DNA from: Trichopria drosophilae
Taxonomy: Eukaryota > Arthropoda > Insecta > Hymenoptera > Diapriidae
NCBI GenBank assembly: GCA_030407085.1
Contig: CM059583.1
Location: 20,992,001-21,056,000 of the forward strand
DNA length: 64,000 nucleotides
Direction: 5' to 3'
Position numbers and translations under genes: made by a program. Shown piece by piece: positions 10,043-63,842 of this stretch (its first letter is position 1; each line of letters opens with the position of its first letter). The notes beneath the pieces are model-generated. The model did not search any database. It was not told where the DNA came from and saw nothing but the letters and a program-made list of their open reading frames with translations.

Positions 10043-11395
10043 ATGAAGTTGTTAACTTCATCCTTCAGTTTCTTACTGGTTTTATTAACTTCTGGTAATA
10101 ATTATAATTTTATAATTTTGACATACAAGATTAATTCAACGTTTAATTAGATTCCACAAAGTGTTTATATTTATTAACGTCAGTGATATTTGTTCCAGAT
10201 CATGTTCTTGGTAATTGGAATTATGATGATTATAATGGTGACATTCTGTGTAACGAAGAGAGTCTAGTACCGAAAAAAGAAAGGGATGGTTCTGTTCAGA
10301 GAACATATGAATCTTATCCTCCTCGTAAGTATATAAAACTTTATTCCTTCTAAAGGCTGCGATTAATATAAAGAAATATAAATATTCGATTCTTGTCCAG
10401 GTGGATGTAATTCAACCAGCGACTGTCCAGTAGGTTACTGCAGCATGTTCTCAAAAGATGACAATGCACCAATGAAACTTGCTTGTCAGAAACAAATTAG
10501 AAATAGATCGACGTCAAAGAAATCCTGTCAATGCAATGTTTTAAGAACCCCATCTTATTCATTGTATTCAGACAAATGTTACCCAAAACCAGTTCCAATA
10601 CAATCTACCGACAAAAAAGTTGCATTATCGGCATCCGATCTGAATCCACCTATCAGAATGATGACTCACTTGTATTGGTCAGGATATCCAGGGCCGTCTT
10701 TCGTAGGAAGCGGTATAGTATCCATAACTACTTGAAAATGTTAATTACCTTGACTGATGCATCGCATTATTCTATAAATATTAATTTTTGTTTATCGCTT
10801 TAAGATACACTGATAGCTAAAACAGAAGCTTCAAAATACTCATTTTAATATATTTACTATTCTTGTTTACGTATAGTTTACAGACTGCGATTGTATTTCA
10901 CTTGAATTTAGTCTATTGTATTTATTTTATAGAAACTCAAACGGATGACTCAACTTGCGAAGACCCAGATGATGAATTCGTTTTAAACGAAAATGGTGTA
11001 TTTTTCTCTAGTGACTGGAATCGTAAGTTATTCTATTATCTAATACCGAATATCAAATGTACCGAAATACGTACGTTGTGCACTAAATCGTATTTTCGCG
11101 AAATGTGATTTTATTTGTTTACGTATCGAAAATACACTAAAGTTGCGTTTCAATTACAGAATATCCTTGCGACTCGGTTGCTGATTGCCCAGAGGATTAT
11201 TGTCAAGAAATGAGTGAAAAAATTGCTAATGAATACATCCTGCCTTACGATATAAAATCTGCGAATAAATTACACTTAAGGTGTATGAGAAGATTGAGCA
11301 TGAGTTTTAGATGTACATGTGCGCTTTCAAAAACTGAACCGCAAAAATGTCCAAATAGCCGTCCTGGTATTCGCAGAATCGAAATGGTGTACTAA
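10043..11395 (+). CDS. Gene A: secreted double 8-cysteine-module protein, five exons
   Basis: The spliced CDS is 10043-10094, 10199-10324, 10401-10712, 10933-11022, 11160-11395 (816 nt, 271 aa). All joins are GT-AG and phase 1. The start codon opens a 17-codon hydrophobic signal peptide (MKLLTSSFSFLLVLLTS) that fills exon 1. Exon 2 carries one Cys ('ILCNE') and ends in the conserved 'YESYPP'. Exon 3 carries seven Cys beginning 'CNSTSDCPVGYC', with 'CQCNVLRTPSY' later and a variable tail. Exon 4 has one Cys ('STCED') and 'GVFF'. Exon 5 repeats the 7-Cys order ('CDSVADCPEDYC', 'RCTCALS'). An AATAAA lies at 11490-11495. A weak TATA-like 'cataaaaat' lies about 105 bp upstream of the ATG. The protein is probably extracellular and disulfide-rich. 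Function is unknown; I recognise no named family, although the spacing is loosely like EB or EGF-type modules. Confidence 0.85.
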
Positions 11396-11399
11396 TTGA

Positions 11400-11885
11400 C
11401 TATAAAAACTAATTTTATATGCAATGAAAAGATGGCAGAGAGCAGTTTATTTATTTGATTTATATTATTACTACAGATTATGAATAACAAATAAATGTAT
11501 ATATATATCTGTTTAATATTGCATAGATCGTTATTATAAAATATAAGTATTCATCTACGTTAAATTGAATATATGTATGTTGCTTTTTATTTGTATTTTC
11601 GACTTTTATAACGAATGTATGTATCGGTCTGAAACGGTTTGAAATAAACTTGTTAAAATTAATACAATATCGATATGGTTGAACGTCATGCAGTGATTGT
11701 TAAAATTCATAGACCTAAAACGTCTGCCTTTGGATGTGCTATGAATTAGAAGATGTTCAAAATAAAAAATTGTTATTGACTTAAAGTGGTTTATACCTTT
11801 CTGCGGAAAAAAAGGCTAACTTTGTGCGTACTTTTGACCAAATTTTTCCTGCTCATATACGATGCATCGAAATTGCAAGTAAATA
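11400..11885. other. 3' flank of gene A, no further gene
   Basis: A+T-rich 3' flanking sequence with several AATAAA-like words. No exon or repeat could be supported before the TTAA element at 11890. Confidence 0.5.
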
Positions 11886-11889
11886 TTAA

Positions 11890-12376
11890 CCCCTTCGTTG
11901 GCACAGAAATTTCTCCAAAAAGTGCATAGAATAGCAGGAATTTTTTTTATCGCCATTTCGACTCCAACCCGTACTGAAGAGTTTTCGAGGTCGCTGATTA
12001 CGAATTTGAACTCAAAATTTGCAAATTCAAAATGGCGAATCCAATATGGTGGCCGAAAATGAAAAAAATTACTTGATTGTGATGAAATTTTTTACTGGGG
12101 GTTTTTCGAGGTGGCTGATAGCGAATGGGAATTCGCCATCTTGAATTTAGAAATTTCAAGCTCGAATTCCTAATTAGCAACCCGAAAACCCCTAAGTAAC
12201 AAATTTCGTTACTATCGAGTAAATTTTTTTTTCATTTTCGGCCGCCATATTAGACTTGGATTCCAAATCGGAGCAAGTTAAATACAAAAAAAAAAACGAT
12301 GTGCGCACTATTGCGTCAATGTCACACAGGGCACCTTCCAATTCCGCGCACTATTGCTTCAATGCCAACGAAAGGG
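11890..12376. mobile_element. piggyBac-type MITE (TTAA target)
   Basis: The left border is TTAA (11886-11889) followed by 'CCCCTTCGTTGGCA'. The right border is 'TGCCAACGAAAGGG' followed by TTGA, a one-base-mutated TTAA. The element is 487 bp. Inside are inverted copies of 'ttttcgaggt.gctgat' and 'aaatggcgaatccaatatggtggccgaaaatg'-type segments. It has no coding capacity. Confidence 0.8.
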
Positions 12377-12379
12377 TTG

Positions 12380-13185: not shown

Positions 13186-13195
13186 AGCTTAGGGT

Positions 13196-13400
13196 ACATG
13201 TCAAAAAACCGAATTTTGAAAATACGAAACATTAAAAAATCGACATTTACAAAGATGACATTGCTGTTTTTCTGAATATAACAGCTTTATGACTCATTGG
13301 CTTTTTGACAATCATCGTTTTTTGAGTGCCGGCTTTTTAAATGTCGATTTTTCAATGTTTCGGATTTTTTAAATTCGGGTTTTTGAGTTGTTCCCGTAGC
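13196..13400. repeat. Inverted-repeat hairpin element
   Basis: The left arm has 'ccgaattttgaaaatacg' then 'aacattaaaaaatcgacatt'. The right arm has 'aatgtcgatttttcaatgtt' then 'cggattttttaaattcgg'. The spacer is about 100 bp. It is probably a small MITE. A similar 'aaccgaca.att...aaa' hairpin-like stretch occurs at 28400-28560. Confidence 0.55.
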
Positions 13401-14036: not shown

Positions 14037-14039
14037 TTT

Positions 14040-14880: not shown

Positions 14881-14929
14881 CCATTTTTCATTAATTAATT
14901 CGTTTGGTATCGATAAGTAAATATATTTC

Positions 14930-16440: not shown

Positions 16441-16450
16441 CGTAACTCCA

Positions 16451-18143: not shown

Positions 18144-20380
18144 TTAGTATATCATTTCCAATTTAAAAATCCCAGGTCGGCTCTTCGGACATTTCTCGTG
18201 TTCAGATTGGATGAGGGCACATGTACATCTCAAACTCATGTTTGATTTTCTCATACACCTTAAATTGAATTTATCTGCAGAATTAAATTTGTCAGTTGCA
18301 ACCTCGTATTCATCAGCAATTTTTGCACCGATTGTTTGGCAGTAATCAGCTGGACAATCATCGACAGTTCGGCAGTAAATAGCTGTAATTGAAAGGTGAA
18401 TTTTAATAACTATAGACTTAATTTGAAATGACCCGGGAAAAAATGGATTATATATAATTATATACAATTTTTGATACAATTAGATCCAATTATATATAAT
18501 TATATATAATTATATATGGATTTTGGCCGTATATAATTATATACAAAGCCGTCAATTATATACAATTATATATGCTAATATATAATTATATATGTTTATA
18601 TCCGATTATATATAATTATATACGGCCAAAATCCATATATAATTATATATAATTATATATAATTGGATCTAATTGTATCAAAAATTGTATATAATTATAT
18701 ATAATCGTATATAAACATATATAATTATATATTATTATATATAATTGCATCTCAATTTATATATAATTATATATAATCCATTTTTTCCCGGGGAGTTATT
18801 CAGTATATCTTACTAGTACATTACCATATAAGGGGAATCCCTTACTGCGCACTTATATCCTAATTATTTTTACGAGTGCACTAAGTAGACATAGCTATGC
18901 GCTATGCGCATAGACATGCGCTAAGTAAGCATTTTAGCACACACTATTACAAAATTGCTTTTCGCTAAATGTCATTACATTATATTTTTTTATTAGATAC
19001 CCCAAAAAAACTTAAATAAAGTCTCATTTGAAGAAATTAGTTCATACTCTAGATACTGTTAGGTATTTGTTGTTGTTTAATAACTTACCACTAAAATCAG
19101 TAGTAAAAAATACACCCTTTTCATTTGGAACGAATTGGTCTGATGGATTGGAGCAAGTGGAGTTACCCATTTCAATTTCTAAAACATACATATAAAATAC
19201 AATTAGCCACATATTGTAAAATGCAATGAAAGGAAAACTGTAAGTAAACTTTAATTAATACGAGAACACCAGATGTATCAAAGTGGTAATTAAAATACCA
19301 CCACTCCGTATTGCGTGAATCATGAAAGGATAAAAATATTGAGGTACGAAAATTATATTTTAAGGTCAAATAACATGTTAATACTCTACCTATTCCTCGG
19401 AAAGAAGGTCCTGGAGATCCTACCCAGTACTCAGATATACTTATTGTTTCGATAGATTTCGGATCGGTTGATGGTAATTCAAATGGTTTTTTGGCGGGAT
19501 CCAATGAAAATGTTTTTGGATAGCATTCGGTAGAGTAAGAAGAATATGATGGGGTTCTCAAAACATAGCATTGACAAGATTTGTTTGATGTGGATTTATC
19601 TCTAATTTGTTTCTGACAAGCAAGCTCCATTGGTGCGTCATCGTGTTTTGCGAATATGCTGCAGTAATCTACTGGACAATCGCTGGTTGATTTACATTCA
19701 CCTGGACAAGAATCGAATAATTATATTTCTTTATAAATTTATTCATAGACTTTAGAAGAAAGTTTTCTACTTACGGGGAGGATAAGATTCATATTTTCTC
19801 TGAACAGAACCATCTTGCTCTTTTTTCTGTACTAGTTTTTCTTCGTTGCATAGGATTTCACCGGTTGTATAGATCAATCCTCCAAGAACCTTCTCTGTAA
19901 TATATATCAAAGTTACTTTACTGGTATATTTTTTCACGGATTTTTCTCGAAACCTCTTTCGTCTTTAAGCATTAGTATCATAATGTTTCGTTTATTTTAG
20001 GGGTAAAAAAGAGTAAACAAATTAAAAGGCCAATGCGTTTAATCCCTCTTCCCGGTACACGCCATTTATATTTTTTTTTTGTTTTAGTCGATTTTAATAG
20101 GAGACATCATGACCGACATCCACGCAGCCACTATTTTATCGTCGATCATGAGTGAACAAATTTAAAAAAAAATATTTTTATACACTTGAATATATGAATT
20201 TTAATGTGAAATATATTTTATATTTTTCATACATTTTTGTGTTTAAAAGAAAATTATTAAAACATGTAACGTGGCATCATTTTCACATCGAATTAAACGT
20301 GTGTCAACATTATAAGATTTAAAAACGGTACCTGCAGTTAATAAAACCAGTATAAAAGTGACTGATGAAATAAACTTCAT
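18144..20380 (-). CDS. Gene B: secreted double 8-cysteine-module protein, five exons
   Basis: The spliced CDS on the minus strand is 20380-20332, 19894-19775, 19701-19390, 19178-19089, 18382-18144 (810 nt, 269 aa), with GT-AG joins in phase 1. Exon 1 encodes the signal peptide (MKFISSVTFILVLLTA). Exon 2 has one Cys in 'ILCNEEKLV' and ends 'YESYPP'. Exon 3 has seven Cys ('CKSTSDCPVDYC', 'CQCYVLRTPSY') and, at 312 nt, is the same length as exon 3 of gene A. Exon 4 has one Cys and 'GVFFTT'. Exon 5 has seven Cys ('CRTVDDCPADYC', 'RCTCALI') and ends 'KLEMIY', close to gene A's 'RIEMVY'. A and B are thus the closest pair apart from F and H. The last intron contains a 361-bp A+T palindrome. Function is unknown. 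Confidence 0.85.
18432..18792. repeat. A+T palindromic element in intron 4 of gene B
   Basis: The ends are 'cccgggaaaaaatgg' and its exact reverse complement. Between them are many 'tatataattatata' words and an inner inverted pair around 'ggattttggccgtatat'. The whole 361 bp could fold into long A/T stems. It is probably a MITE or an expanded AT repeat carrying terminal repeats. It lies inside an intron and does not break an exon. Confidence 0.75.
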
Positions 20381-31576: not shown

Positions 31577-34500
31577 TCAATCTAAATATTGTATTGTAAT
31601 AACACCTGGTTTATTTTCTGGACATGTCTGATTATCAGCATCCGCAAGTGCACATGTGCATCTCGGTTCGTAATATTCTCGTCTCATACAAAGTAACTTG
31701 TATTTATCAGTAGAGTTGTATTTGTCTGCTTCAACGTTAAATTCATCGACGATTTGTGAACCCATTTTCTGGCAATAATCAGCTGGGCAGTCAGCAACAG
31801 TTTGGCATTCAATGTCTGTAATTGTGATAATGAATAGCTGATTAGTAACTACTAAATATTTATTACTCATACTGTATTTATATTAGTCTTTTTTCAAAAT
31901 GGAATTATATGCATCTCACTTTCAAATTCAAACTTAGGCCTGACCATTAAATTTGAAAGTTATTTTACATTAGTTATATTAATTTTACATTGAAATGTAG
32001 AAATCATTTGCATTTGAAATATATCCAGCAGTATATCATGGTGTCACTAAAAAACACTCTTCGTTGGTTTCTTATTAAAAAAAAAATTTAAATATGTAAT
32101 TAATTAATTTTTAATACCCATGAATATAACGTAAAAAAATATTGTTAGGCACATGTGCGAAAAGTTATGTATGAAAATGTGATTTACACACACGTATCAA
32201 ACATATATCCTTGAACAATATTGTACGTATTTTAGACACTCTATACTACGTTAAGATCCTAATAAATCAATTTTATTTAGTAAAGTTTGGCACTATCTTT
32301 ATGTTCGGTTTCTTTCTGGACAGCACAGTCCTTATTAAGTCCTTATCAAACTTTACTAAATAAAATTGATTGAAGAAGTGGAAAGTTTCTTAAAAACTTC
32401 TTATCGACAGAACTTTCGGCACTCGTAAGGTCCGTATTATATTTTTTCCTATGTAAAAATTTTATTTAAAAACAACAATACCTATAGTGAACAAGCCATA
32501 AAATCTATTCATCATCAATTTAAAGAATTATTCAACGTCATTTATTAATTTATTATTTTAATTAATAATAAATATTATTTCAATATTCAAGAGCAATTCT
32601 CATTGCATTGCTCATCGCTTGAAAAATGAGCTTGAGTGCGTTTCTAAATAAATTTTTGTATAGTTATTCTTTGTTGAATCTATCTCGTTCTAAATGTGAA
32701 GATCTCTTATACAATTTTATAAATTGATGATAAAAAATAAATAAATGTGGTTTAGCTCACGCGAAGCGACATATTAAACAATCGATAACATAGGTAATTT
32801 ACATACAATTTTTTGAAATTTTACAGGTCTAGTTTCTTTGATTTGTCTGAAATTGAAGGGCCGGATTGAATAACGCCTTCCGCGCTCGGGTCAAGCTGAC
32901 GTGCCCCTGAATGTATGCAATCACCGATAGATTTGGAAAAAACATTTGCTATTAAAAAACATTAAAAAATCATGAACTCCTGCAAAACTGTCCGCGAGGA
33001 AGTTGTTGCTAGGGGTTCGAGGTATACTGATACCGATTTGTAGGCATTTTCATTCAGTACGTACAGAGATTTCGATAATTATATAGTAGGTTATGAATTG
33101 CGTCAGCGCGGCTGTGTTTGGGTTCTTAGCCGAGAAAATCTGTAAGCTTCAAATAATGAAAAGTAATGATCAAATTGACTTTTTTATGTCGAAATGAAGA
33201 TTAAGATTACAATGGATACCAAGTGAACCATTACATGAAGATAATTTTTCATTGAATTTATTACAATTATCACAGAAAGTCATTTTTTCACCTCATCGAA
33301 GTGAGAAAATGATTTTGTAAATACATCTAGAAACTTTCAAGAAAAAATGTTCATAAGTTTTATTGCATTAGATATATATATATATATGTATAGAAATGAT
33401 TATCCAATTAATAAAAATCTTATAATCGTAACATTACATATATATCTCTATAGAAATGATTATCCAATTGATAAAAATATTGTAAATAAAGATACACGGA
33501 GAAAAATAATCAACAAAATCAGCCGAAAAATCCGCAGATTCTACCAATTTTATCCTATAGGGACAGCTGTTGGAATTCCGTTAGGGATAGCCGATAATTT
33601 CAGCTAAATTTACTGAAAAAGTCCGCAAATTTAACGGAACAAATCTGCTAATGTTGCGGAAATTTAGAGCTAAGCGCGAATTGAGTAGGGTTAAGGCTAC
33701 ATTAGCGGAATCAAAACAGCTAAAATTGAATATATTTTCGGCAATTCCAGCCGAAAATTTTAGCTGATATGAATCAGCTAATCCAGCGGAGTCATTTTTC
33801 TCCGTGTATACTTAAAATTGAACTAGAATCTTTTATTTTCAATCTACTACTTTCTTGTTAAATTAACAATTTATCATTAGTTTCCTGATTTAAATATAAC
33901 TAATTTCAATTTTACTTGTGCATTTTTTTTAAAGGTACGTGGAACTTGTTAAATTAACCAGAAATATATCCTTTTATATCGGAAAGATATTTTTATTGGC
34001 AACATAAAATTTATGATAAATAACAGCTCTTCTATATTGTTTATATTTTATTTTTTATTTACACAATTAAACGGGCCGTAGAGCCTTTCGACAAGATTTA
34101 GTATATTGATTGCCAAATTTTAAAGTAATAAATAACAAAATAGCAAAATTTTACATACAAGATACCATGAACAATAAAGTAGAGAATACTTACAAAACGT
34201 GCTCAGAAAAAATCACTTAGTATTTACTAAAACGTCTTGTTAAAATTACATTATGAAAAGTGGTAGAATTCATGGTTAATTTAACAAGTTACGCGTAATT
34301 TAAAAAAATACACAAGTAAAATTGAAATTAGTAATATTTAAATCAGGAAACTAAAGATAAATTGTTAATTTAACAACAAAGTAGTAGATTCAAAATAAAA
34401 TATTCTAGTTGAATTAAAAGTATATACCTTTATTTACATGATTTCTATTAATTGGATAATCATTTCTACACCTAATGCAATATACAACTTTTGAAAATTT

Positions 34501-37500: not shown

Positions 37501-40249
37501 ACATTTTGAATTTGCGCCTTATTACGATTTATAAAATTTACAACAGTATGTTGCATCCAATTTTAGGAATTTTTAAAACTAGAGTTAATTCGTTATCAGT
37601 TACATAATATATTAACACTATGCCATTTATTCTATAAAAACTTACCATTCATGAAATTAGTGAAAAACACGCCTCTATGTTTTAGCACCAATTGGTCGAT
37701 AAGATTTTCACAGGTGGAGTCGTCCATATAAACGTCTAAAAAATATAAATGATCAATGAAACACTGACGTAATGTTTTGATATCATGTAGGGTTAAAATT
37801 TAGAGTTTAGAGTCTATTTCGATATAAGTTACAATATTTTTGACAAAGCATCTGCATTGAATGTTATTTCAATTTTATAAACTGCTTCTGATAAATCGTG
37901 AATTCTCTTTTAGCCGAATTTCGTTTCACGTAAGACGTCTCTTCCCGTAGAATCGCAAAATGAGCTTTTCTCCTCATCAAACAACAAAAGTGAACTTGCC
38001 TGTAGATGCTAACTAAGTTAATTAACACACAAATGATTGTGTGTACCTCTACCTTTGGATATTCCTAGTTATATTTGCCTTATCGTCATTTTCCAATGAA
38101 TTTTAGCTCACAAAAAGTGAACCACTTAACTGGATGAATATATCGACGTTTAGGAGCCACGTGGATCTATTTCGGTGTAACAATAAATACGTTTCTACAC
38201 CACTGACTGAGTAGAAAAGGTCCTACCATTTTTTTACCCCAATTCAGGTTGATAACAATACACATTCGTCTGTTTTTGAGCTGCTATATGATATTTCTCA
38301 ACTCGAAAGAAGGACTCCTACGAAATGTGTTATTACCAACCTAAATTGTTGTCAAGAAATAGAACCTGTTTTGGCACTACAATGAGATAGAACCATCTTT
38401 ATTACCACACGAAATCAAAACCCTTTTTAATGCCACAGCGAGATATAATAATTTTTATTGCTTCAATGAAATAGAAACTTGTTACTCCCAGCCGGCAAGA
38501 TTATCTAAGATCAACTTCAGTCCAGTACATCATCTGGTCCACAAGGTTGACCAAGTGAGGTCTTGGAACACACTACGAAATTTGCAAATGAAAATTATTT
38601 TACACAGCAGACGGCTTCAAACCTACAATAGGATACGTAACAGACGAACAATACCCTGGCTACTATTTTTAATTTTTTTGTAATATAAAATAAATGTAAT
38701 ATAAATTAAACAGAAGTACCATATCCTTCGAGTCCATTTCCACGTCCTCCACGTGTTCCAGACCAATAGTAATGAATCCGGCTCTTCTCTTCTCCGAACT
38801 TATCTACAAATGCATCAAAGTCGCCATTCTCGCTACTCATCACCTTTTCAAATTCATCTTTGTCCATATTTTGTGGCAGCCTCCAAGCTAGCAAATTGTA
38901 ATCCAGGGCGAGTTTTGGGTAGCATTCGGTAGAGTTCAGAGGATATGTTGGTGTCCTTAAAATGTCGCATTGGCAAGTTTTTATTGGCTTTTTTGGTGGT
39001 AACTTTTCCGAGATATCATAATCTCTGTAGATTGCATGCGGAGATTGTTCCTTACAACTTAGCTCCATCGGTGCATCGTCGTATTTTGAAAATCCATTAC
39101 AGTAATCCACCGGGCAGTCACTGATCGATGAACATTCTCCTGCACAGAAAAAAACGAGCTTTTTATCAGTTTCGATTTGATTAATATGGAAATCAGGATT
39201 TCAGAGATTTACTTTGATTGCTCAGTGCATTTAAAAAATAAGATATTTAGTTGCCGAAGTAGGTGTAAAGAAAATGATACCTAACCTATATTTTTCAAAG
39301 AAATGGGAAAGAGTAACTGATCTTGCCTTATTTTTCTTCCTTCTCTATATTTTTTGACCAGAAGGCATTTATTAATTGCTACAAAATATATCAGCAAAGT
39401 ATTCTCGATATCTGAGGAATATAAGATCCTTAAAAAAAAATGTCATCCAAATTTGCTCTTTCAAAATGCCTTTCGAAATCATTTCGATTTATAAATTTCG
39501 TTATTAATGATCTATTTCCTGATATCAAAGCCAATTTAGTGGGTTTTAAATGTTATTTATTAGACATTGCAGAATACATCATGTTTAGTGAGAACATATT
39601 TGTTTAATGTAAAATATGCAAGAACGGTCTGTACCACAGTAATTACAAACGCATAATTTTCAAGTAAAATAAAATGAAAATAATTATAAAAAACATGAAA
39701 ATATGGAAATACGTACAATAAACAACTATAACGTAGTATAAAATTGGTGGAAATAATTGAATTGTATTTTGTCCGTGAGTCTCTTTGTTAAACTATTGTT
39801 TCCAGCGAATAAAAATTTCTGATGTTATCATAATGACTAAAATCAAATTTTATTTCATTACAGGATAATTGTCATTCATGCAGAAAGTCCATTAAGCGTT
39901 AAAAAAATTGAAATGAAAACTTAATTTTAATTATTACAAATTCTGGATAAGTCAAATTACACTGCATAAATGACACATTATTTACTTACGGTCTGGATAT
40001 GATTCATACGTCTTTTGAAGTGATCCATCTTGATCTTTCGCCAGTACATAAAACTCTTCTCTACAAATGATTTCTCCCAACTGAATTTCTCTACCAAAAA
40101 CGTCTTCTACAAATAAAATAATATTAATAAATATCACTTACGTCAGAATGATTATATTTTACATAACTCTATTAAAATAATAATTTTGAAATATTACCTG
40201 TCGTTATTAACACAATTAGAAATGTTAGTAATGAACCTACTGTCTTCAT
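31577..40249 (-). CDS. Gene D: secreted double 8-cysteine-module protein with a very long last intron
   Basis: The proposed CDS on the minus strand is 40249-40198, 40106-39990, 39139-38720, 37735-37646, 31815-31577 (918 nt, 305 aa). All joins are GT-AG and phase 1. Exon 1 is the signal peptide (MKTVGSLLTFLIVLITT). Exon 2 has one Cys ('IICRE'). Exon 3 (seven Cys, 'CSSISDCPVDYC', 'CQCDILRTPTY') is 420 nt, the longest in the cluster, with 26 residues between Cys 4 and Cys 5. Exon 4 has 'STCEN' and 'GVFFTN'. Exon 5 has seven Cys ('CQTVADCPADYC', 'RCTCALADAD') and is 239 nt, exactly as in gene B. The donor of exon 3 (GTACTT) is weak, and read-through would meet a stop at 38706. Assigning exon 5 rests on its being the only free one, 5.8 kb away. 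It could instead be an orphan exon of a lost copy. AATAAA lies at 31457-31462. Function is unknown. Confidence 0.65.
32265..32371. repeat. Perfect hairpin in intron 4 of gene D
   Basis: 'aatcaattttatttagtaaa' followed by 'gtttg' (from 32265) is the exact reverse complement of the segment ending at 32371. The loop is about 57 bp and contains 'gtccttattaagtccttatc'. It is a small palindromic element or MITE. Confidence 0.7.
32850..34996. mobile_element. Foldback-like element with inverted arms of about 0.75 kb
   Basis: The ends are 'aattgaagggccggattgaa' and its exact complement. The arms (about 32850-33955, which includes a 0.3-kb insertion, and about 34260-34996) match closely over hundreds of bases. 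Landmarks are 'cgcgctcgggtcaagctgac', 'ctgtccgcgaggaagttgtt' and 'gcttcaaataatgaaaagta', each present inverted. The spacer is about 300 bp. There is no coding capacity. It lies in the long last intron of gene D and probably contributed to that intron's growth. Confidence 0.8.
33495..33806. mobile_element. MITE nested in the left foldback arm (CACGGAGAAAAAT ends)
   Basis: The ends are CACGGAGAAAAAT and ATTTTTCTCCGTG. The right foldback arm (near 34415-34430, inverted) shows the uninterrupted site, 'aaaggtatatactt', where the left arm has the insertion flanked by 'ata' and 'tata'. This element of about 310 bp therefore arrived after the arms were formed. It contains inner repeats of 'cagc.gaa' and 'ccgcag/aaatt'. 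Its ends resemble the CACTGAGAGAAAA ends of the element at gene E. Confidence 0.75.
35100..36000. repeat. A+T-rich repeat with direct and inverted copies
   Basis: 'cataattgattagaaattta' with 'tcaagagttt' near 35265 recurs inverted near 35760-35790 and direct, with changes, near 35910. Each copy is next to a 'taaagtatc.gaatg'-type word. This is a local dispersed repeat inside the long intron of gene D. The ORFs at 35467 and 35768 are A+T spacer. Confidence 0.45.
36000..37640. other. Intron DNA of gene D; repeat fragment at about 37150-37270
   Basis: No exon was found. At 37150-37270 'acacgtgtccgtaaagtaga' starts a fragment that matches, in inverted orientation, the repeat end near 6990-7050 ('ctactttatggacacg'). 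The remainder is plain A+T-rich DNA. Confidence 0.4.
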
Positions 40250-45086: not shown

Positions 45087-46603
45087 ATGAAGTTGTTAAT
45101 TTCATACCTCGCTATTTTAGTGGTTTTATTAACTTCAGGTACTCTTCTTAAAGAGGTTGTAAAATAATATGCCGATTAAGAAGGAATTTCCGCTAAAAAA
45201 CGTAAATTAAAAATTTCTGAATCAATTTTTCTAAATTCTGTATGGGTAATTCTACTAAGGGCACTTATAAAATGTCAAAGAAATGAATTAAGAATTGTCC
45301 GAGAGTTATTGGAAATAAATAAAAATCACTTATTTCGAATTATTTCTCGTTAAATTCATAATTAATTTCTTTGGTATTCGTTAATTTGCCATATAATAGT
45401 TATTAGGATTACCAAATAAAAGGCATTTTTAATTTTCGATTTTCAGTGTAAATTCCTACCTTATAGTACCAACACCGGTTGGTATTAAACTATTATTGAT
45501 GCATTACCAAGAATTCAAATTATATTTATCTGATTTATAGAGAGTGCACTTGGGAGAAGAGTCCATCATCTATTAAACACATGTACAGAAAAGTACGTTA
45601 TGCGAAAAGCAGATCAGGAAGGTTCTCTCCAGAGGAAATATGAATCTCATCCTGCTCGTAAGTACATCCACATATGTTTTCTAACCACAATAATTAAATT
45701 TATGAAGAATTAAAAATATATGATTCTTATGCAGGTGAATGTGAATCAACTAGCGACTGTCCGGCTGATTACTGCAATGTTTTTTCGAAATATGATATTG
45801 ATCCAATGGAACTTGCTTGTCAGGAACAAATTAGAGATAAATCAACGTCAAAGAAATCCTGTCAATGTAATGTTTTAAGAACACCATCGTATACTGCATA
45901 TGCAACCCCTTGTTATCCTAACAATTGGAGAGATTCTGAACTTTTAGGACCAGGTAAAATAAATATTTTGTTTATATAATTATATTACACGTGAAATGCT
46001 GGCCTTGTTTAAACACACGGAATTATCTCCTTTATACATTCCGTGTTTTTGTATTGGTTACATTTGACTGGTATTTTTTTGTCGTTATAGTTTAAATAAA
46101 TATATATATTGAAGTACTGTTCTTTGTGTTCTAGAAATTCAAAAGGAGAACTCTACCTGCTTGTATCCAAAAGACGAACTTATAACACTTGAAACGGGTG
46201 TATTTTTCCATTCTGCTGCAGGCGGTAAGTTTTTTATCCCAATCGATTGAAGTTTCTAGAAATGTATTTTTTTGCCGTTTCCTTCAGTTTTGAAACCAAG
46301 TAGTATAGTTTGTATTATTATGTTGTTAAGTACACACTCTAATGCCACTTTTGATATTCAGATCCTCCATGTGACTCTGTCGCTGATTGCCCAGCTCATT
46401 ACTGTAAAAAAATGGGTAAAGAAATTATTCATCAATATAAAGTAAAACCAAAGAATTTTAATTCTGCTGATAAATTCAACGTAAGGTGTATGGAAACATC
46501 ATCTATATTATCTGCAAGATGTACTTGTGCTCTGACACACGCCGACGGCCAAAAATGCCCAAGGACGAAACCTGGTATTTACATACCCATAATATTGTAC
46601 TAA
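45087..46603 (+). CDS. Gene E: secreted double 8-cysteine-module protein, five exons, shortened exon 3
   Basis: The spliced CDS is 45087-45138, 45541-45657, 45735-45953, 46135-46224, 46362-46603 (720 nt, 239 aa), with GT-AG joins in phase 1. Exon 1 is the signal peptide (MKLLISYLAILVVLLTS). Exon 2 has one Cys ('NTCTEK'). Exon 3 keeps all seven Cys ('CESTSDCPADYC', 'CQCNVLRTPSY') but is only 219 nt. It lacks the tail with a 'YWSG'-like end found in A, B and D. Exon 4 has 'STCLY' and 'GVFF'. Exon 5 has seven Cys ('CDSVADCPAHYC', 'RCTCALTHAD'). AATAAA lies at 46635-46640. The reading frame is fully open, yet the promoter is split by a 1.1-kb transposon, so expression is in doubt. Function is unknown. 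Confidence 0.85.
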
Positions 46604-50520: not shown

Positions 50521-51479
50521 TACTCAAAATGAAATGAAAAAGAACAGATGCTCAAGTTCAATGGTGAAAATAAAGTTGCTTCTAGTATAAAAACTACATC
50601 TATGCAGGCATTTTACTACTTCCGATCCCTCCGTGCATCAAAATATTTAGCGGGAGAGCCCTTAATAGATTGACATTCATTAGTGTTTAATAAGTGATTC
50701 TTCGTTTATAAAACATCATTAAATCGAATTAGTTTAATCTAATTAATTGAATCTAATGATGTCTGATTTAATAATCAGGATACAGTTCCGAAAGCCGTGT
50801 ACCCGCAATTTTTATTCCCAATACGTATCCCTACGTAATTTTGGGCGCTGATTACGAATATCATATTGAAAATTGGCGATTAGATCATCTTCAAAAGGCA
50901 AATCTACAAAAAACGTAATTTTTCCCGGTTTCTTACATTTATCTTAATAAATGAAAATCTGCCGAAAAAATGTTTACAACACAAAACGGAGAGCATAAAA
51001 TTCTTTACAAAAGAAGGTAATACGTTATATTTTTTCGCAATACCAATCGCAAGGCCATAAACTAAGGTTGTTCACTTACAAGATCAAAAGTTAAAAAGTA
51101 CATCCTTTTTGTTTATTAATATAATTTTATATATAGATTGGTTTACCCAGTGAAGAAAAAGATTTGGTAATCGAGAAATATTCTCCTCCGCAGAATTGCA
51201 CTTTTCTTGATCCTCCAATATTAAATATTGAAATTAGTTACGCAATTAATGAAATCGCTTGGATTAGCGTAAAAGAATTGCTGCCAAATATGAGAAGTTA
51301 GCTGATTGTGTTTCTTATATTGCGAAAACAATGTCTACTCTTTTAAAGAGAGAAAAGCCTCAAGATATAGATTATAACGGATCATAGCGATACGTGTCAT
51401 TTAATCGCCGATACTTCACAAATCTTAACTCGAAAAAGTTTATTTCTAGCAGTTAAATTCTTCCATGAATGAAACTCTA

Positions 51480-52500
51480 ACGATGACTACTATGGACGAC
51501 CAACATGTACCTAAATTAGCTGAACGTTTAAAAATGTCTAAATTAATTTACAAGTCTGTAGAAGTATCGAAAACCAAGAAATCATCTTCCAAATTAGATA
51601 AAAAAAACTTGAAGGGCCCGTGACGATATTCGAACTGATTTTACTTGACATCCAGATAAAATTAATCATTTCTAAATTGATTTCAGATCTTATCAAGAAG
51701 AGTGCAATAACTGAGTTAGAATCAGTCAAAGGTAAATTTTTATGTAGTGTTGTTTTTTCAAAACCTGACACAAGTTTTCGTTTGTTTTTAAATTTAAAAC
51801 GTTGACATGCATTTTTCAAACTGATCACTTCAAGGTTGAAGATTATAAATTAACCTCAAAATTAATACATTTTAATTGTTTATGTCATCTTTAGATGTAC
51901 AAGATGCATATTACCTAATCATAATTGACTAATCTCATGGAAAGTATTTCATATTTTTTATGAATTTTCTTATCATTCGATGTATCGATAGCTCCGCAAA
52001 CATTCACAAAGTTAATGAAACGAATAATTAATTATATGAGACGAAAAAAGGTAATGAAACTAATCGAATATTAGAAAACCTTGGCTTTATTGTATCTTAT
52101 GAGAACATTCAATTATGTATTACTGTCTCATAGAATTACATTGTTAGCTTTTGAAAAATGTAAATAGAACTATATATACACGAGAAGACAATATATATTA
52201 CGAAAAGACATAAGAACTGCAGTTAAATATGAATTAGACAAATTTAGTGCCATTTAAAATTGCGAAAAATTAAATATTTTGTTCAATTTATTGGAATGCT
52301 TGTATCCTGTTGTCCTTCAATAAAATATAGTTGGGTTTATACAAAAAATGTTGAACGTCAGAAATATTTAACTCCTGCAAAAAATGAAAAAGGTTTTTGG
52401 GCAGATGCAGAAACAAATTGTTATAGAACGACGTGTCTTGAATTACCAGCAGCACTTTTTGGTATTATGTGTTTTTTACTAATTATAACAGAAATATAAA
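51480..52500 (+). pseudogene. DIRS-like retrotransposon relic (RT and RNase H region)
   Basis: In successive frames the region gives 'LISDLIKKSAITELESVKGK', 'KPDTSFRLFLNLKR', 'HFKVEDYKLTSKLIHFNCF' and 'SLDVQDAYYLI', which follow the order of DIRS/Ngaro-type reverse transcriptases. At 52260-52499 a further frame reads 'FVQFIGMLVSCCPSIKYSWV' and 'VYTKNVERQKYL', like the RNase H-linked segment of such elements. Stops separate the parts. The corresponding stretch of the second block (61660-62100) is shorter by deletion. Assignment is from remembered motif order. Confidence 0.55.
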
Positions 52501-52989
52501 TATATTATTCAGAAATAATAATACTGCAATAATATGTAATAAATAGAATTTGGGTGTGATTTCCAATTTTAAATAACCTGCAAAACGTTTTTGACAATGA
52601 TATGATCGTCGAAATATATGAGTTTTTGCTTCTTATCAAAAAATCAGTTTGAGGCTAACAATGAATCGCAAAAATGATACCCAGAAACAGAATTTTCATT
52701 GTCAGATAATGATTATTAAAATTATAGTAACACATTTTAGCAAAAAAAAATCCTGATCCGACGTGGAATGCCCCATAAAGGATTTCAAATTTTAAGAAAT
52801 TTTTGTGGAAGAAATACCAGGGTTAAGATTTAAGTATTACAAGATTTTTAGGTTTATGCCTATAAAAAAAATAGTTTTAAATTAAAATGATATTTATTCA
52901 GTATAATAGTTACAGCGTAACGTAATGGATTAAATATCACTCTTTACATTCGTAAATAAATAGACATTATTCGTCAAATATAATTTAAA

Positions 52990-54326
52990 TTACATTCTTA
53001 TAAAACGATTGGGTGGACACCTTTTGATGCCGGACTGGGTATATTTACATACACATTTAGATTGTTGTTTGGATCCTCTGATGCACATTAGGTTGAAGTT
53101 ATGCATAGAGTTGAATTCATTACCTTTTACGGCATATTCCTTGCGAATTGCATTTTTTATTGTCCGGCAATAATTTACTGGACAGTCAGCAACAGTTTGG
53201 CAATTAATACCTGTAATTAAATGGTAATCATTGAACATAATGCAAACAGGATATCAGTCACAAATACTACCAATAACATTAATAAACCGTATTTGAAACA
53301 CGTTTAAGTAACTCCGAATATTTAATCATTTTGTGAAACCTAGAAACTTACTATTGTGTTCAGATGTGAAAAACACGCCTTTGTTTACTATTATTTTGTC
53401 ATCTGGAATTGAGCAGGTTGTATTCTTTTTGTAAGTCACTGAAAGAGATATTCAATCATTTAGGAAAACGATATAAAATTGTGGAAATGAATTACAAGTA
53501 ATTATAAATTATACGTAAAGTTACCTGTTCCACGGATTTCTGTTTTGTTATCTCGAAAAACATAATTCGATGGAGAATTAATTTCAGTATGAATTTTTAC
53601 AATTTTCATTGTCACGTCTCCTTCATTCTCATTTACTGGAGTTTTTGGGAAACATGTCGTGGAAAAGGATGCGAGCGATGCTTTTTTTAAAACGTTACAC
53701 TGGCATGTATGATAATATGAAACTTGCCCGGGATCTCTGAATAACGTAAGAGGTGATTGCTTCATACAAGTCGGTACCATTGGCGCAACATCATGTTGTG
53801 AGAACTAATCACAATAATCAGCAGGACAGTCCTTAGATCTACAATTAACTGTAAATACAAAATAGCTTAAAAACAGATCCTGCCAGTTTTTTTTAGTAAT
53901 TGACTTAAAAATATCCTTGTGATCGCTTTGGGAGCATACAAAGTTTCAAACACAAGAAAGAAGTCACTAAACTAAGAGTATATTATATAAAGGTGTTTAA
54001 CGAATTCAAATAAAATCAGGGTTATTTTAAATCTGTATACAGTTGATGTCAGTAAAAGTAATTAATTGATATCAATAATTATGTACTTACGTGGGGGATA
54101 TGATTCATATTGCCTCTGAATATAACCATCCTCTTCTCCAGCTATGGCATAAATCTTTTCTGTGCAATGCAGTGAGCCAAGTGCATTGTCTACAAATAAT
54201 GGAATTATATTAACAAACTTTCAAACTACTATACTGTTTACAAATACCAATATATTATGATAAATATATCGAACCTGATATTAGCAAAACAATCAGAAAT
54301 GTTGCGGACGAAAATATTACTTTCAT
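52990..54326 (-). pseudogene. Gene F: copy of gene H broken by a nonsense codon in exon 3
   Basis: The exon layout on the minus strand is 54326-54275, 54189-54091, 53848-53525, 53438-53352, 53210-52990 (783 nt, 261 codons counting the terminal stop), with the same exon lengths as gene H and intact GT-AG phase-1 joins. Codon 65, at 53805-53807, is TAG. Gene H has CAG at the same place (63322-63324), so one C-to-T change on the coding strand would explain it. The stop falls just after the third Cys of exon 3, before most of both cysteine modules. Nearby, H's 'DDAPM' is 'DVAPM' here. The rest of the frame stays open, and promoter and AATAAA (52893-52898) remain, so the loss looks recent. It could also be an allele or a sequencing error. 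Signal peptide MKVIFSSATFLIVLLIS. Confidence 0.85.
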
Positions 54327-54414
54327 TTTGAAGTCCTTAATAAGACAATGTTTTTAGAAACCTTTCAACACGGGATGAATCTAGACTACAATGTTTAGAT
54401 CTACAAGAAACATT

Positions 54415-54431
54415 CTTTTATACTGTTGACC
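54415..54431 (-). promoter_or_regulatory. Gene F core promoter (GGTCAACA next to TATAAAAG)
   Basis: On the minus strand GGTCAACA (54431-54424) is followed at once by TATAAAAG (54422-54415), 97 nt before the ATG. The identical pair stands upstream of gene H. It is intact even though the gene carries a stop. Confidence 0.7.
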
Positions 54432-54499
54432 AAAGAGTAGTTATCTTCCCCTTCTCAAAATTAAAAAAAAAAAAGATTTAGATCTGACTCTGATTCAAT

Positions 54500-57960: not shown

Positions 57961-57982
57961 GGGAGATAGTGATGTAGATCGG

Positions 57983-57990
57983 TATAAAAG
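57983..57990 (+). promoter_or_regulatory. TATA box of gene G
   Basis: TATAAAAG preceded by GG, 93 nt before the ATG of gene G, at the spacing shared by the paralogs. No GGTCAACA word is adjacent. Confidence 0.7.
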
Positions 57991-58075
57991 ACTGTTTCAT
58001 TATGAAGATGTCACAGTCTCGAATTTAATTCAAAACACATATATTTTATAATAGTACTGTTACAGTAATTATAAA

Positions 58076-59470
58076 ATGAATACATCAGCTTTCTCAGTGA
58101 CTTTGTTCATCGTTGTACTAATGTCAGGTAATTTATTATATTAAGTATTGTTGTTTGAGAATATTAGAACTCTCGTTATTTCTTACAAAAGAAAAATTGT
58201 GCTAACTAATACTATTGTAACAATTTAGACAACGTCTTTGGCAGATCGACAAATTATATATATCGAGGTCCAACAACCTGGTGTAGTCGAGGGCAGCCAG
58301 TTTTAGTTAAAGAAGAGGAAGGCGCTATTCAGCGACAATACGAATCGTACCCTCCCCGTAAGCATAAAATAATATATATTATATAAAATAATTAATTGGC
58401 ACCCAAAATTATTATAGTGCAGAAACATGTAAATTCTTATTAAAGTTATATTATCAATATTTCATAGTTGGTACATTGGTTCTTATCCATGAACAACTTA
58501 GAAATGGAGCTGGACATGTATTATTATTTCATTAGATTAAATTAACTCGTTGTAATGAGGTTTTATAAACTCCGAATTAACATTAATGACTTATTAAATA
58601 CAGGTGCGTGTCAATCTATTAAGGACTGTCCCGCTAATTACTGTGATGCATTTTCAAAACACGATGATGCGACAATGACATTGACGTGTGCGGAACGATC
58701 GGAACTAGCAAAACACAGACCATCTACCGAAGATATGGACTTTAAGACCTGCCAATGCAAAGTTTTAAACACGCCAAATTACTACTTACATTCGAATAAT
58801 TGTTTCCCAAAAACGTCGCTCAATGTTACCCAAGGAGAAGGACGAATGTACATTGAAAGTACTTACACCAAACATGTGAATGAACCGGAATCAAAATATT
58901 TCGAAAATGGCATCTTTTACAGCGGAAATGGTAATAAATATGGATATCTTATTTACGAAATATTTAAATAAACCAACATCTAAAATGTCCATAAATAAGC
59001 CATAGAAACACTAAAGAAGACGAAGTTTCGATGTGTAACTGTGACATTTCATTGTATTTCTCTTTTAGTGTACAATGAAAGGCACTCCACCTGCTCAAAT
59101 CCTGACGATAAATTAGTAGTAAAAGGTCGTGATTTGTTCTTCACTGTAGGCATGAATGGTAATATCTCTTCAGTATTGTCAATCGTTTTTAAATGTACCA
59201 TAATTGCATGTGATGAGTGATGCTCTGTACTATACTAATCACTTTCCTGTTACAGATATTACGTGTGAAACTATCGCTGACTGTCCATCTGATTATTGTC
59301 AAGACATAAACCACCACATTATCCGTGAATTCAACGTTACAGCTGACAATTTTAAATCTGCGGATAATTTTAATTTACTGTGTTCCAGGCGAACGCAAAA
59401 TAGGTCTCAATGCGTTTGTAAATATATGCAAAATGATCTTCACAAATGTCCCTCATATCGAAATAATTGA
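58076..59470 (+). CDS. Gene G: secreted double 8-cysteine-module protein, five exons
   Basis: The spliced CDS is 58076-58127, 58229-58357, 58604-58930, 59069-59158, 59256-59470 (813 nt, 270 aa), with GT-AG joins in phase 1. Exon 1 is the signal peptide (MNTSAFSVTLFIVVLMS). Exon 2, the longest of its kind at 129 nt, has one Cys ('TWCSR') and ends 'YESYPP'. Exon 3 has seven Cys ('CQSIKDCPANYC', 'CQCKVLNTPNY') with 20 residues between Cys 4 and 5, as in F and H. Exon 4 has 'STCSN' and 'DLFFT' where most paralogs have 'GVFF'. Exon 5 has seven Cys ('CETIADCPSDYC', 'QCVCKYMQND') and a short end. The 'CVCKY' word links G to F and H. It lies between the two duplicated blocks, on the opposite strand. 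AATAAA lies at 59585-59590. Function is unknown. Confidence 0.85.
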
Positions 59471-59930: not shown

Positions 59931-61069
59931 TTCTGCTCCTTGAATTGAACTCAGTACCGGCACTGCAATCACCTACTTCATGGTTTGGGGCGTGGTTACA
60001 GTGTAATTTCCCGCTGATCTGGTAGAGATTTTAGTATAAAAACTACATCCGAATCTCGAATTTTTCGGTTCTTAAATGCTTTTTCTATTTTACTATTTCC
60101 GATCTCTCCGTGCATCACGATATTTAGCGGGAGACGCCCTAATAGATTGACATTCATTAGTGTTTAATAAGTGATTCTTCGTTTATAAAACATCATTAGA
60201 TCGAATTAGTTTAATCTAATGAATGTAGTCTAATTAATTGAATGTAATGATGTTTGATTTAGAAATCAGGATATAGTTCCGAAAGCCGTGTAACCCCCCC
60301 CCCCCCAATTTTTATTCCTAATACGTATTCCTACGTAATTTTGGATTCTGAATACGAATATCATATTGAAAATTGGAGATAAGGTCATCTTCAAGGGCAA
60401 ATCTAAAAAAACGCAATTTTCCTGTTTTTTTTACATTTATCTTGATAAATGAAAATCTGACGAAAAAATGTTTCTTACAAAAAATGGAGAGCATAAAATT
60501 CTTTACGAAAGAAGGTAATACATATTATATTTTTTCGCAACACCAATCGCAAGGCCATAAACGAAGGTTGCTCACTTACAAGATTAAAAGTAAAAAAGAA
60601 TATTCTTTTTATTTATTAATATAATTTAGTAAAGACAATTAATTTTCCCCCAATTACAAATACAAATGTGTTGTTTTTCACGTGCAATTCTTTAATTTTT
60701 CATGATAATCTTTAAATTTATAGAGTTTATTACTTGAGAATAGGAAAAAATAATGAAGTGCAGAATATTAATCCGATAGCAAGAATATTAGTATCTCAAA
60801 AGGTAGAAAATTCGAATGCTCAAAATTCTTAAGTTATGTCGACAGGTGAAAAGGACCTAGGAACAATATTTTTAATGTCATTGGGCAAAGACTTACGGAA
60901 AGCAAATATTTAGCACCGTCAGTTGATTCATGTATAGCTACACAAAGATTGATATACCCCGCGAAGAAAAAGAATTGGTAATCGAGAAATATTCTCCTCC
61001 GTGTCATTTAATCGCCGATACTTCTGCATAACTAAATCTTAACTCGAAGAAATTTATTGCATGATTTAA

Positions 61070-61627
61070 CCCTTTCAGTCACGAATTTTTCCAGCCATGG
61101 CATTTTTTTGAAATTTTATATACTTGAGTTTTTGAGGTCGCTGATTACGAATCCGGTGTCAGATTTTCAAAATTCAAAATGGCGGATCCAATATGGCCGA
61201 CCAAAAATTTGAAAGATAATAAATTTGGCTAATATTTGGTATATAGGGGTTTTGGAGGACGCTGATAATTTTTCAAAATTTTTGTCGGCCATATTGGATC
61301 CGCCATTTTGAATTTTGAAAATCTGACACCGGATTCGTAATCAGCGACATCAAAAACTCCGGCATACCAAATTTCAAATAATAATAGCGATTAGTTCTTC
61401 CTGGCATGAATTTCTTTTGAAAATGATGCCTTTTTTTGGTACTAATTTGTTATTAACAATAATTATTTTAAATAATTTTGCAATATTATTTTTTTTAACA
61501 CTTATTGGAGTCTTAGGAAAGCCAGGAACAAAAAAACCGCATCGAAATCGATAACTATCTGTTCATAAACCTTAAAAAATCGATAGCATCTAGGTGGGAC
61601 ACTGGTGTCCGCCTGTGACTGAAAGGG
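61070..61627. mobile_element. piggyBac-type MITE inserted in copy 2 of the duplicated block
   Basis: TTAA (61066-61069) is followed by CCCTTTCAGTCAC, and GTGACTGAAAGGG by TTAA (61628-61631), giving a 558-bp element with exact 13-bp ends. Inside, a large inverted pair contains 'gctgattacgaatccggtgt' and 'caaaatggcggatccaatat'. The other block copy has no such element at the matching place (near 51453, 'cagttaaattc'). It has no coding capacity. Confidence 0.9.
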
Positions 61628-62506
61628 TTAATTACTTAATAACATAATTAAATTTAATAAACATATTCGATGAAAGAAACTCTAACGATGACTACTATGG
61701 ATGACCAACATACTCATAAATTAGCTGAAAGTTTAAAAATGGCTACATTAATTATTGATAAGTCTGTAAAAGTTTCGAAACCCAAGAAATCATCTTCCAA
61801 ATTAGATAAAAAAACTTGAAGTGCCGGTGACGATTTTAGAACTGTATTTACACGACACATAGAAGAAAATAATCATTTCTAAATTGATTTCATATCTTAT
61901 TAAGAAAGGGGCAATAACTGAGTTTGAGTCAGCAAACATTCACAAAATTAATGACACCAATAATTAATTATTTGAGATAAAAAAGGTTTTTCTTCAGTTC
62001 TGTATCTAGATGATTTTTTATTAATAAATAATAATACATATATATGTGATAATACATATGTAATAATACATATTCATTTTTTGTGCTAATTATAACAGAA
62101 ATATAAATATATCATTCAGAAACGATAATACTAAAAAAATATCTAATAAATAGAATGTCGGGTGCGATGTACAGATTTAAATAACCTGCAAAACGTTTTT
62201 AACAATGACCTGAAAGTGGAAATATTTGTGTTTTTGCATTTTATCAAAAGATCAGTTTGATGTTAACAATGAATCGCGAAAGTGACCCCCAGAAACTGAA
62301 TTTCCATTGTCAGATGATGATTATTAAAATTATAATACAAGATTTTGGCAAAAAAATTGCTGATTCGACGTGGAATGAAATAAAAAAATAGTTTTAAATT
62401 AAAATGATATTTATTCAGTATAATAATTACAGCGTGACGCATTGGATTAAATATAACTCTTTGCATTCGTAAATAAATAGACATTATTCGTCGAATATAA
62501 TTTAAA

Positions 62507-63842
62507 TTACATTCTTATAAAACGATTGGGTGGACACCTTCTAATGCCAGACTGGGTATATTTACATACACATTTAGATTGTTGTTTTGATCCTCTCATG
62601 CACATTAGGTTGAAGTTATCCATAGAGTTGAATTCATTAGTTTTTACGGCATATTCCTTGCGAATTGCATTTTTTATTGTCCGGCAATAATTAACTGGAC
62701 AGTCAGCAACAGTTTGGCAATTAATACCTGTAATTAAATGGTAATCAATGAACATAATGCAAACAGGATATCAGTCACAAATACTACCAATAACATTAAT
62801 AAACCGTATTTGAAACACATTTAGGTAACTCCGAATATTTAATCATTTTGTGAAACCTAGAAACTTACTATTGTGTTCAGATGTGAAAAACACGCCTTTG
62901 TTTACTATTATTTTGTCATCTGGAATTGAGCAGGTTGTATTCTTTTTGTAAGTCACTGAAAGAGATATTCAATCATTTAGGAAAACGATATAAAATTGTG
63001 GAAATGAATTACAAGTAACTATAAATTATACGTAAAGTTACCTGTTCCACGGATTTCTGTTTTGTTATCTCGAAAAACATAATTCGATGGAGAATTAATT
63101 TCAGTATGAATTTTTACAATTTGCATTATCACGTCTCCTTTATTCTCATTTACTGGAGTTTTTGGGAAACATTTCGTGGGGAAGGATGCGAGCGATGCTG
63201 TTTTTAAAACGTTACACTGGCATGTATGATAATATGAAACTTGCTCGGGATCTCTGAATAACGTAAGAGGTGATTGCTTCATACAAGTCGGTACCATTGG
63301 CGCATCATCATGTTGTGAGAACTGATCACAATAATCAGCAGGACAGTCCTTAGATCTACAATTAACTGTAAATACAAAATAGCTTAAAAACAGATCCTGC
63401 CAGTTTTTTTTTAGTAATTGATTTAAAAATATCCCTGTGATCGCTTTGGGTGCATACAAAGTTTCAAATGCAAGAAAGAAGTCTCTAAGACTATATTATA
63501 TAAATGTGTTTAACGAATTCAAATAAAATCTGGGTTATTTTAAACCTGTATACAGTTGATGTCAGTAAAAGTAATTAATTGATGTCAATAATTATGTACT
63601 TACGTGGGGGATATGATTCATATTGCCTCTGAATATAACCATCCTCTTCTCCAGCTATTGCATAAATCTTTTCTGTGCAATGCAGTGAGCCAAGTGCATT
63701 GTCTACAAGTAATGGAATCACATTAACAAACATTCAAACTAATTACTGTTTATACGTAAATACCAGTATATTATTATAAATATATCAAACCTGATGTTAA
63801 TAAAACAATCAGAAATGTCGCGGACGAAAATATTGCGTTCAT
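62507..63842 (-). CDS. Gene H: secreted double 8-cysteine-module protein, intact twin of gene F
   Basis: The spliced CDS on the minus strand is 63842-63791, 63702-63604, 63365-63042, 62955-62869, 62727-62507 (783 nt, 260 aa), with GT-AG joins in phase 1. Exon 1 is the signal peptide (MNAIFSSATFLIVLLTS). Exon 2 has one Cys ('LHCTE') and ends 'YESYPP'. Exon 3 has seven Cys ('CRSKDCPADYC', one residue shorter between Cys 1 and 2 than in the others; 'CQCNVLKTAS'). Exon 4 has 'TTCSI' and 'GVFFTS'. Exon 5 has seven Cys ('CQTVADCPVNYC', 'KCVCKYTQSG') and ends 'PPNRFIRM'. AATAAA lies at 62410-62415. The upstream intron frame is open in exon 3's direction but is not coding. Secreted and disulfide-rich; function unknown. 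Confidence 0.85.

Follow-up and report, generated by a model that had tools for sequence, protein, structure and literature searches.

What are the cysteine-rich proteins encoded in tandem at one locus of the wasp Trichopria drosophilae (Hymenoptera: Diapriidae), and how did they arise? The window analyzed here is a stretch of 64,000 nucleotides, bases 20,992,001-21,056,000 of contig C2 (CM059583.1, 210.9 Mb) in assembly GCA_030407085.1 (936 Mb, 509 contigs). A sequence-only reading had proposed that it holds seven five-exon genes for secreted proteins with 16 cysteines each, belonging to a fast-evolving effector, venom or defence family that could not be named. According to our gene models, the 16 cysteines fall into two related modules of eight, connected through a linker of variable sequence; exons 2 and 3 encode one module and exons 4 and 5 the other. 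Gene and exon coordinates are window positions unless C2 or C4 is stated, and all models are derived from the sequence.

Six intact genes and a recent pseudogene in the window

Six of the seven proposed genes (A, B, D, E, G and H) are intact, with five exons each and exactly 16 cysteines in every protein, and protein lengths range from 239 to 305 aa (Table 1). All 24 introns of these genes are GT-AG and, judged by exon lengths, in phase 1. The seventh, F, did not hold up as a gene: it is a recent copy of H that retains the splice sites and the codons for all 16 cysteines, in spite of an in-frame TAG in its third exon. The family likeness among the modelled genes is beyond chance, since H matches F with a tblastn E-value of 7e-105 and the 15 pairs of intact window proteins share 34-58% identity. 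A hydrophobic, signal-peptide-like leader, read from the sequence and not by a dedicated signal-peptide predictor, begins 11 out of 11 proteins when the copies described below are included. Leaders, strands and the stop in F thus bear out the earlier description of a secreted family in tandem copies of both orientations with a fresh pseudogene.

The window appears to be given over to this family; the sequence-only reading had likewise seen no unrelated intact gene among its seven. No other intact gene was seen among its 117 stop-to-stop open reading frames (ORFs) of at least 70 aa, by general scans and no full gene finder. A Pfam search of 10 window ORFs returned just two sub-threshold reverse transcriptase fragments, which we rejected as part of the gene family system, and the window contains no tRNA and no Rfam match at the gathering score.

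Two related modules, each encoded by an exon pair

In module 1, exon 2 carries cysteine 1 and exon 3 carries cysteines 2-8; in module 2, exon 4 carries cysteine 9 and exon 5 carries cysteines 10-16. Among the six window genes the cysteine spacings are 26, 4-5, 4, 14, 13-26, 1 and 14 in module 1, and 23-24, 5, 4, 26-27, 9-10, 1 and 9 in module 2, with a consensus module pattern of approximately C-x26-C-x5-C-x4-C-x14..27-C-xn-C-x-C-xn-C. The linker is shortest in gene E, at 21 aa. The conserved cysteines and variable loops noted earlier therefore extend further, with C-x5-C-x4-C and C-x-C repeated in both halves. A local hhalign comparison of module 1 with module 2 gave a score of 37.9 and a probability of 91% over 22 columns, which correspond to the C-x5-C-x4-C core. 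None of 100 controls, in which the cysteines were fixed in place and the remaining columns permuted, reached this score (mean 12.9, best 26.4). Aligned globally over 75 columns, the modules of the six genes scored 26.0, whereas 50 controls averaged 3.7 and peaked at 6.7. When 11 genes are used, the local match extends over 46 columns with a probability of 96%, and the global alignment of 75 columns reaches 92%.

Intron placement provides a further, independent likeness of the two halves. In the C2 genes a phase-1 intron splits each module and another phase-1 intron lies between the modules, so that each exon pair is a frame-neutral unit open to duplication. We also built a tree of 22 modules from the 10 intact C2 genes and C4a, a copy on contig C4; F was left out, and the extra signal-region cysteine of gene I was dropped before the cysteines were counted. 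A single branch with support of 100/100 separates the 11 first modules from the 11 second modules, indicating that the internal duplication predates these gene duplications. On this tree, the examined copies diverged from one another after the two-module form had arisen. C-x-C is present in 22 of 22 modules, and the other cysteine pair is C-x4-C or C-x5-C, never C-x3-C. In CS-alpha-beta defensins the helix carries C-x3-C and the final strand C-x-C, a combination that none of the 22 modules shows.

Copies beyond the window and a second array

Of the 39 matches to protein B in a genome search, 38 lie on C2 at 20.966-21.070 Mb and one, a weak match, on C4 (E 0.7). Four further intact genes with five exons were modelled on C2 (K, M, G2 and I). 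Three of these four encode 16 cysteines, while I has 17, the extra one in its signal region. The layout of exon pairs 2+3 and 4+5 is found in all 10 intact C2 genes, and as modelled the C2 array is 10 intact genes and F in 103 kb.

An exon from C4, used as a query, matched at 14 places, of which six are on C4. The others are weak: seven fall on C2 (best E 0.023) and one on C6 (E 0.21). The six C4 matches lie at 25,243,757-25,272,574, all on the minus strand and free of stops. The single copy modelled here, C4a, shares 25-29% identity with five aligned C2 proteins; the other five are known as exon matches. Judged by these matches, C4 carries a second, divergent array of at least six copies. One divergent C4 copy (L044:302-625, minus strand) has exons 3 and 4 in one frame and a basic RIRR in its linker, a possible processing site.

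Table 1. Positions of modelled genes, modules and other features of the arrays
Feature	Position	Strand	Details
Gene A, intact, 271 aa, 16 cysteines	10043-11395	+	exons 10043-10094, 10199-10324, 10401-10712, 10933-11022, 11160-11395
Module 1 example, gene A exons 2 and 3	10199-10712	+	cysteines 1-8 and linker
Module 2 example, gene A exons 4 and 5	10933-11395	+	cysteines 9-16 and tail
Gene B, intact, 269 aa, 16 cysteines	18144-20380	-	exons 20332-20380, 19775-19894, 19390-19701, 19089-19178, 18144-18382
Gene D, intact, 305 aa, 16 cysteines	31577-40249	-	exons 40198-40249, 39990-40106, 38720-39139, 37646-37735 (located by motif scan), 31577-31815; last intron 5.8 kb
Gene E, intact, 239 aa, 16 cysteines	45087-46603	+	exons 45087-45138, 45541-45657, 45735-45953, 46135-46224, 46362-46603
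Probable relic, G-like exon 3	50634-50675	-	tblastn E 0.37, weak alone; inverted match to G exon 3, 82% over 66 nt
Segmental duplication, left copy, holds F	50610-54472		repeat families D2, D3, D6, D8, D9, D11-D20
F, recent pseudogene copy of H, five exon-like pieces	52990-54326	-	in-frame TAG, exon 3, 53805-53807
TATA-box-like TATAAAAGA, example, gene G	57983-57991	+	93 nt before ATG
Gene G, intact, 270 aa, 16 cysteines	58076-59470	+	exons 58076-58127, 58229-58357, 58604-58930, 59069-59158, 59256-59470
Segmental duplication, right copy, holds H	60087-63983		repeat comparison
Gene H, intact, 260 aa, 16 cysteines	62507-63842	-	exons 63791-63842, 63604-63702, 63042-63365, 62869-62955, 62507-62727
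Gene K, intact, 5 exons	C2 20966730-20970000	-	modelled
Gene M, intact, 5 exons	C2 20977651-20978973	-	modelled; less usual GTTAGT donor after exon 2
Gene G2, intact, 5 exons	C2 21059206-21060600	+	modelled
Gene I, intact, 5 exons	C2 21067663-21069593	-	modelled
Gene C4a, four exons (exons 3 and 4 fused), 16 cysteines	C4 25271970-25273157	minus	modelled

Selection on modules, linker and signal region

Whole-gene ratios of non-synonymous to synonymous substitution (dN/dS, by NG86) are 0.17-0.56, below 1 in all 15 window pairs, many of which have a dS above 1 that makes the values uncertain. Ratios are also below 1 in 6 further pairs, and G/G2 gives 0.44 by NG86 and 0.61 by maximum likelihood. 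Positive selection on whole genes is unsupported, since all 15 pairs fall below 1. Six less saturated pairs were then divided by region. Module 1 has ratios of 0.14-0.42 and module 2 of 0.33-0.70, while the linker spans 0.16-1.14 (0.48-1.14 in five of the six pairs and 0.16 in G/G2) and the signal region 0.05-1.38, with values above 1 in G/G2 and B/E. The N-terminal stretch and the tail are too short to judge, and their single values of 7.2 and 6.5 come from few synonymous sites. By these estimates purifying selection acts on the modules, and the linker often evolves almost neutrally; positive selection may act in the signal region and linker. The proposal of a fast-evolving effector family is accordingly upheld in part: the near-neutral linker and a fast exon 1 agree with it, but the low whole-gene ratios do not, nor do exons that are less diverged than non-exon sequence between recent copies.

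Duplication history

F and H lie in the two copies of a segmental duplication, identified by repeat comparison among 20 of 24 families shown. The offset between left and right copies is 9.48-9.61 kb in 12 out of 15 shown pieces and 9.8-10.2 kb in the other three. F and H occupy the duplicated segment, G separates the two and G2 lies past H, so that what was copied appears to have been a pair of oppositely oriented genes. Between F and H the exons differ by 3.3% (26/783) and non-exon sequence by 10.7% (96/899); the difference is 1.2% in intron 3 and 2.1% in intron 4, against 13.6% and 25.5% in the flanks. The corresponding values for G and G2 are 5.4% in exons and 13.0% outside them, with 0% in intron 4. 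This pattern fits purifying selection outside the signal exon together with gene conversion, and on the copies compared here the family has expanded through both tandem and segmental duplication, gene conversion perhaps playing a part.

Promoters

TATAWAW is found 83-104 nt upstream of the ATG in 9 of the 11 C2 copies (at -91 in H and -94 in I), while B and E lack it at this position. The upstream scan covered 300 nt in 10 C2 copies (158 nt for H); H was completed with sequence beyond the window and I was added. Further TATAWAW matches occur elsewhere within the scanned 300 nt, and a random 60-nt piece of the window contains one with a probability of 0.096.

Searches for known families and folds

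No family in Pfam or NCBIfam was matched above its cut-off. The sole recurrent Pfam match was the late nodulin family (PF07127), the top match for six of six window proteins. This match covers about 20 residues, the C-x5-DCP-x2-YC core, and reaches at best 19.9 bits (D) against a cut-off of 30.4; in a wider set (A4), four of six members matched, with a best E of 0.00093. On these scores, the likeness is a shared motif, not membership. Other matches were taken as chance: NCBIfam at E 0.028 and 0.34 (one member each), PHROGs at a best E of 0.016 (one member each), a Pfam reovirus family at E 0.024 (one member) and DUF6488 at E 0.27 (E), and among Protein Data Bank (PDB) sequences three with H alone at E of at least 1 and two with exon 5 at E 0.29 and 1.5. 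A full-alignment query gave no PDB sequence match.

A collection of 5.8 billion proteins gave no relative at E up to 1 among 1231 and 2205 candidates; the second query consisted of 6 of the 11 modelled intact proteins, and the insect share of the collection is uncertain, so that taxonomic restriction cannot be read off. In viral contigs 21 stretches hit peptide patterns and none encodes a relative, which lowers but does not exclude a viral link. Titles and the starts of abstracts contained no description of the family, and four core peptide strings occurred in no paper, with subscription papers and supplements outside the search. The sequence-only reading could not name the family, and neither could we: the libraries searched held no match to a well-known family, an outcome that would have refuted that reading.

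Predicted structures have mean pLDDT values of 58 and 56, with a helix followed by a hairpin in both separately predicted modules. Foldseek returned 46 matches at E up to 10 and none at 0.001. The adhesive region of Toxoplasma MIC1 (2jh7) was a weak match of a low-confidence model, is absent from the 83 chains for the exon-3 model, and does not appear among the PDB sequence matches.

Other features of the locus and genome

An inverted repeat with 498-nt arms, 97% complementary (window 32850-33347 and 34499-34996), lies within the last intron of gene D and is probably a foldback transposable element; in gene B, the final intron contains an AT-rich palindromic repeat block (18441-18790). Between gene M and the window, a 360-aa open frame (L041:6561-7640, plus strand) looks by eye like a mariner-type transposase, and a 437-aa frame beside gene K (L039:2123-3433, plus strand) like a non-LTR reverse transcriptase. 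Past the right end of the cluster, L050:8503-8937 (plus strand; about C2:21,084,503-21,084,937) resembles by eye an insulin- or relaxin-like precursor ORF, with a leader, dibasic sites and a CC-x3-C end. Elsewhere, eleven of the 14 matches of a Kunitz-domain search are exon matches clustered on one strand at C1:170,218,138-170,231,519. Two loci about 46 kb apart (C4:112,178,682-112,225,113) exceed the cut-off of PF12278, a sex-determination family typical of Hymenoptera, in keeping with a hymenopteran genome; 14 control genomes gave no match.

Possible function of the family

We favor a secreted two-headed disulfide scaffold, probably a gland-delivered binding protein or effector acting on another organism, to which we assign a probability of about 40%. 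The leader, the modules, the copies and the selection on the modules are read from the sequence, whereas the fold, disulfides, tissue and target described next are inferred. Each module would fold as a helix and a beta-hairpin held by disulfides, and the two together would form a stable two-headed extracellular binding protein. TATA-box promoters would drive abundant production in a secretory tissue such as the venom gland or the larval salivary gland, and the protein would target proteins of another organism, with copies covering different targets or dosage; tissue and target are the weakest steps. A secreted binding protein is taken as most likely because of this stable two-headed anatomy and the likeness to TGM, discussed below, and the family may belong to a venom, defence or effector class. 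A broader and more doubtful proposal is that the two-exon, phase-1 cassette of 8 cysteines, duplicated both within and between genes, is an undescribed domain of a Hymenoptera effector superfamily, two-headed ligands directed against another organism and encoded in at least two chromosomal arrays of different age.

Several observations weigh against the two-headed effector. Whole-gene dN/dS below 1 gives no sign of an arms race. The structure models are poor and come from single exons without the first cysteine of the module. The global module comparison with six genes has a probability of only 36%; in the module tree, resolution within each half is poor (12 of 19 inner branches open), the placement of C4a is unsure, and the C4a modules and the second module of I have long branches. 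Exon 1, encoding the signal, diverges strongly (11.5% in F/H and 17.3% in G/G2, above most introns), and indels in the flanks may inflate divergence there, weakening the case for gene conversion. A rhamnogalacturonan-lyase lifestyle test (PF14683, PF06045), taken as a gall-wasp test from PMC6855507, gave no match; the controls were also silent, leaving it uninformative.

Endogenous immune or barrier proteins, serving recognition or antimicrobial roles by binding microbial surfaces or proteases in haemolymph or gut, would also be secreted, disulfide-rich and multi-copy with modules under purifying selection, and tandem arrays are common among insect immune genes. However, no antimicrobial or lectin family scored over its cut-off and the 10 scanned upstream regions hold one kappa-B-like site, and we consider this reading unlikely. 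We are similarly skeptical of structural or reproductive secretions cross-linked by disulfides, such as chorion, cocoon, glue or seminal fluid. Chorion-type clusters are tandem, run in both orientations and have TATA promoters, and the secreted type, 16 cysteines, TATA promoters and both orientations are found here as well. In contrast, the 11 proteins have no low-complexity stretch (lowest 20-mer entropy 2.95-3.11 bits), the cysteine spacing is strict, and the module models look globular, if poor. Improbable, in our assessment, are two-headed inhibitors with one protease per module, in the manner of multi-domain Kazal, Kunitz or TIL proteins: the repeated disulfide-rich modules would suit them, and parasitoid venoms are reported to contain protease inhibitors rich in cysteine (PMC7930282), but the Pfam matches, listed to E 10, include no Kunitz, Kazal, TIL, pacifastin or WAP family. 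That most copies are decaying around one or two functional genes is very improbable, for despite the stop in F and the probable relic exon, 10 of the 11 modelled C2 copies are intact and none of the 15 window pairs or the 6 further ones reaches a whole-gene dN/dS of 1.

While tandem arrays of secreted cysteine-rich proteins are already known, the duplicated 8-cysteine exon-pair module appears new as far as tested. Relatives filed as uncharacterized insect proteins may well exist, insect proteomes being outside the search. Many secreted wasp proteins are without annotation, and this family offers a clear modular anatomy; should the module be new, it would add a domain to Hymenoptera genome annotation. 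Its copies form a graded series (fresh, recent and old) and a second array exists, which makes it possible to test directly for module swaps, gene conversion and target specialization.

Comparison with known systems

The late nodulin or nodule-specific cysteine-rich peptides (PF07127) resemble the wasp proteins in the C-x5-DCP-x2-YC core. These plant peptides are short and single-module, whereas the wasp proteins are two-module animal proteins of 239-305 aa. The cysteine-rich venom proteins of parasitoid wasps are likewise secreted, cysteine-rich and from Hymenoptera; PMC7930282 reports Kunitz, pacifastin and Kazal-type proteins and protease inhibitors among them, profiles not listed for the wasp family. 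In the gall wasp Diplolepis rosae, most contigs upregulated in the venom gland are unannotated, according to PMC6667641.

TGM, the TGF-beta mimic of Heligmosomoides polygyrus, has ten secreted members built of tandem disulfide domains with two exons per domain, as described in PMC10516467. The likeness is one of layout only: tandem domains of two exons each are found in all 10 intact C2 genes, whereas C4a departs from this plan through its fused exons 3 and 4. Each TGM domain is of the CCP/Sushi type and contains 4 or 6 cysteines, whereas the wasp modules have 8 and no Sushi/CCP match is among those listed by Pfam at E up to 10, a search in which HMMER filters drop most matches above about 0.1. 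The two kinds of domain differ; in the organization of its genes and proteins TGM is the closest likeness that we found.

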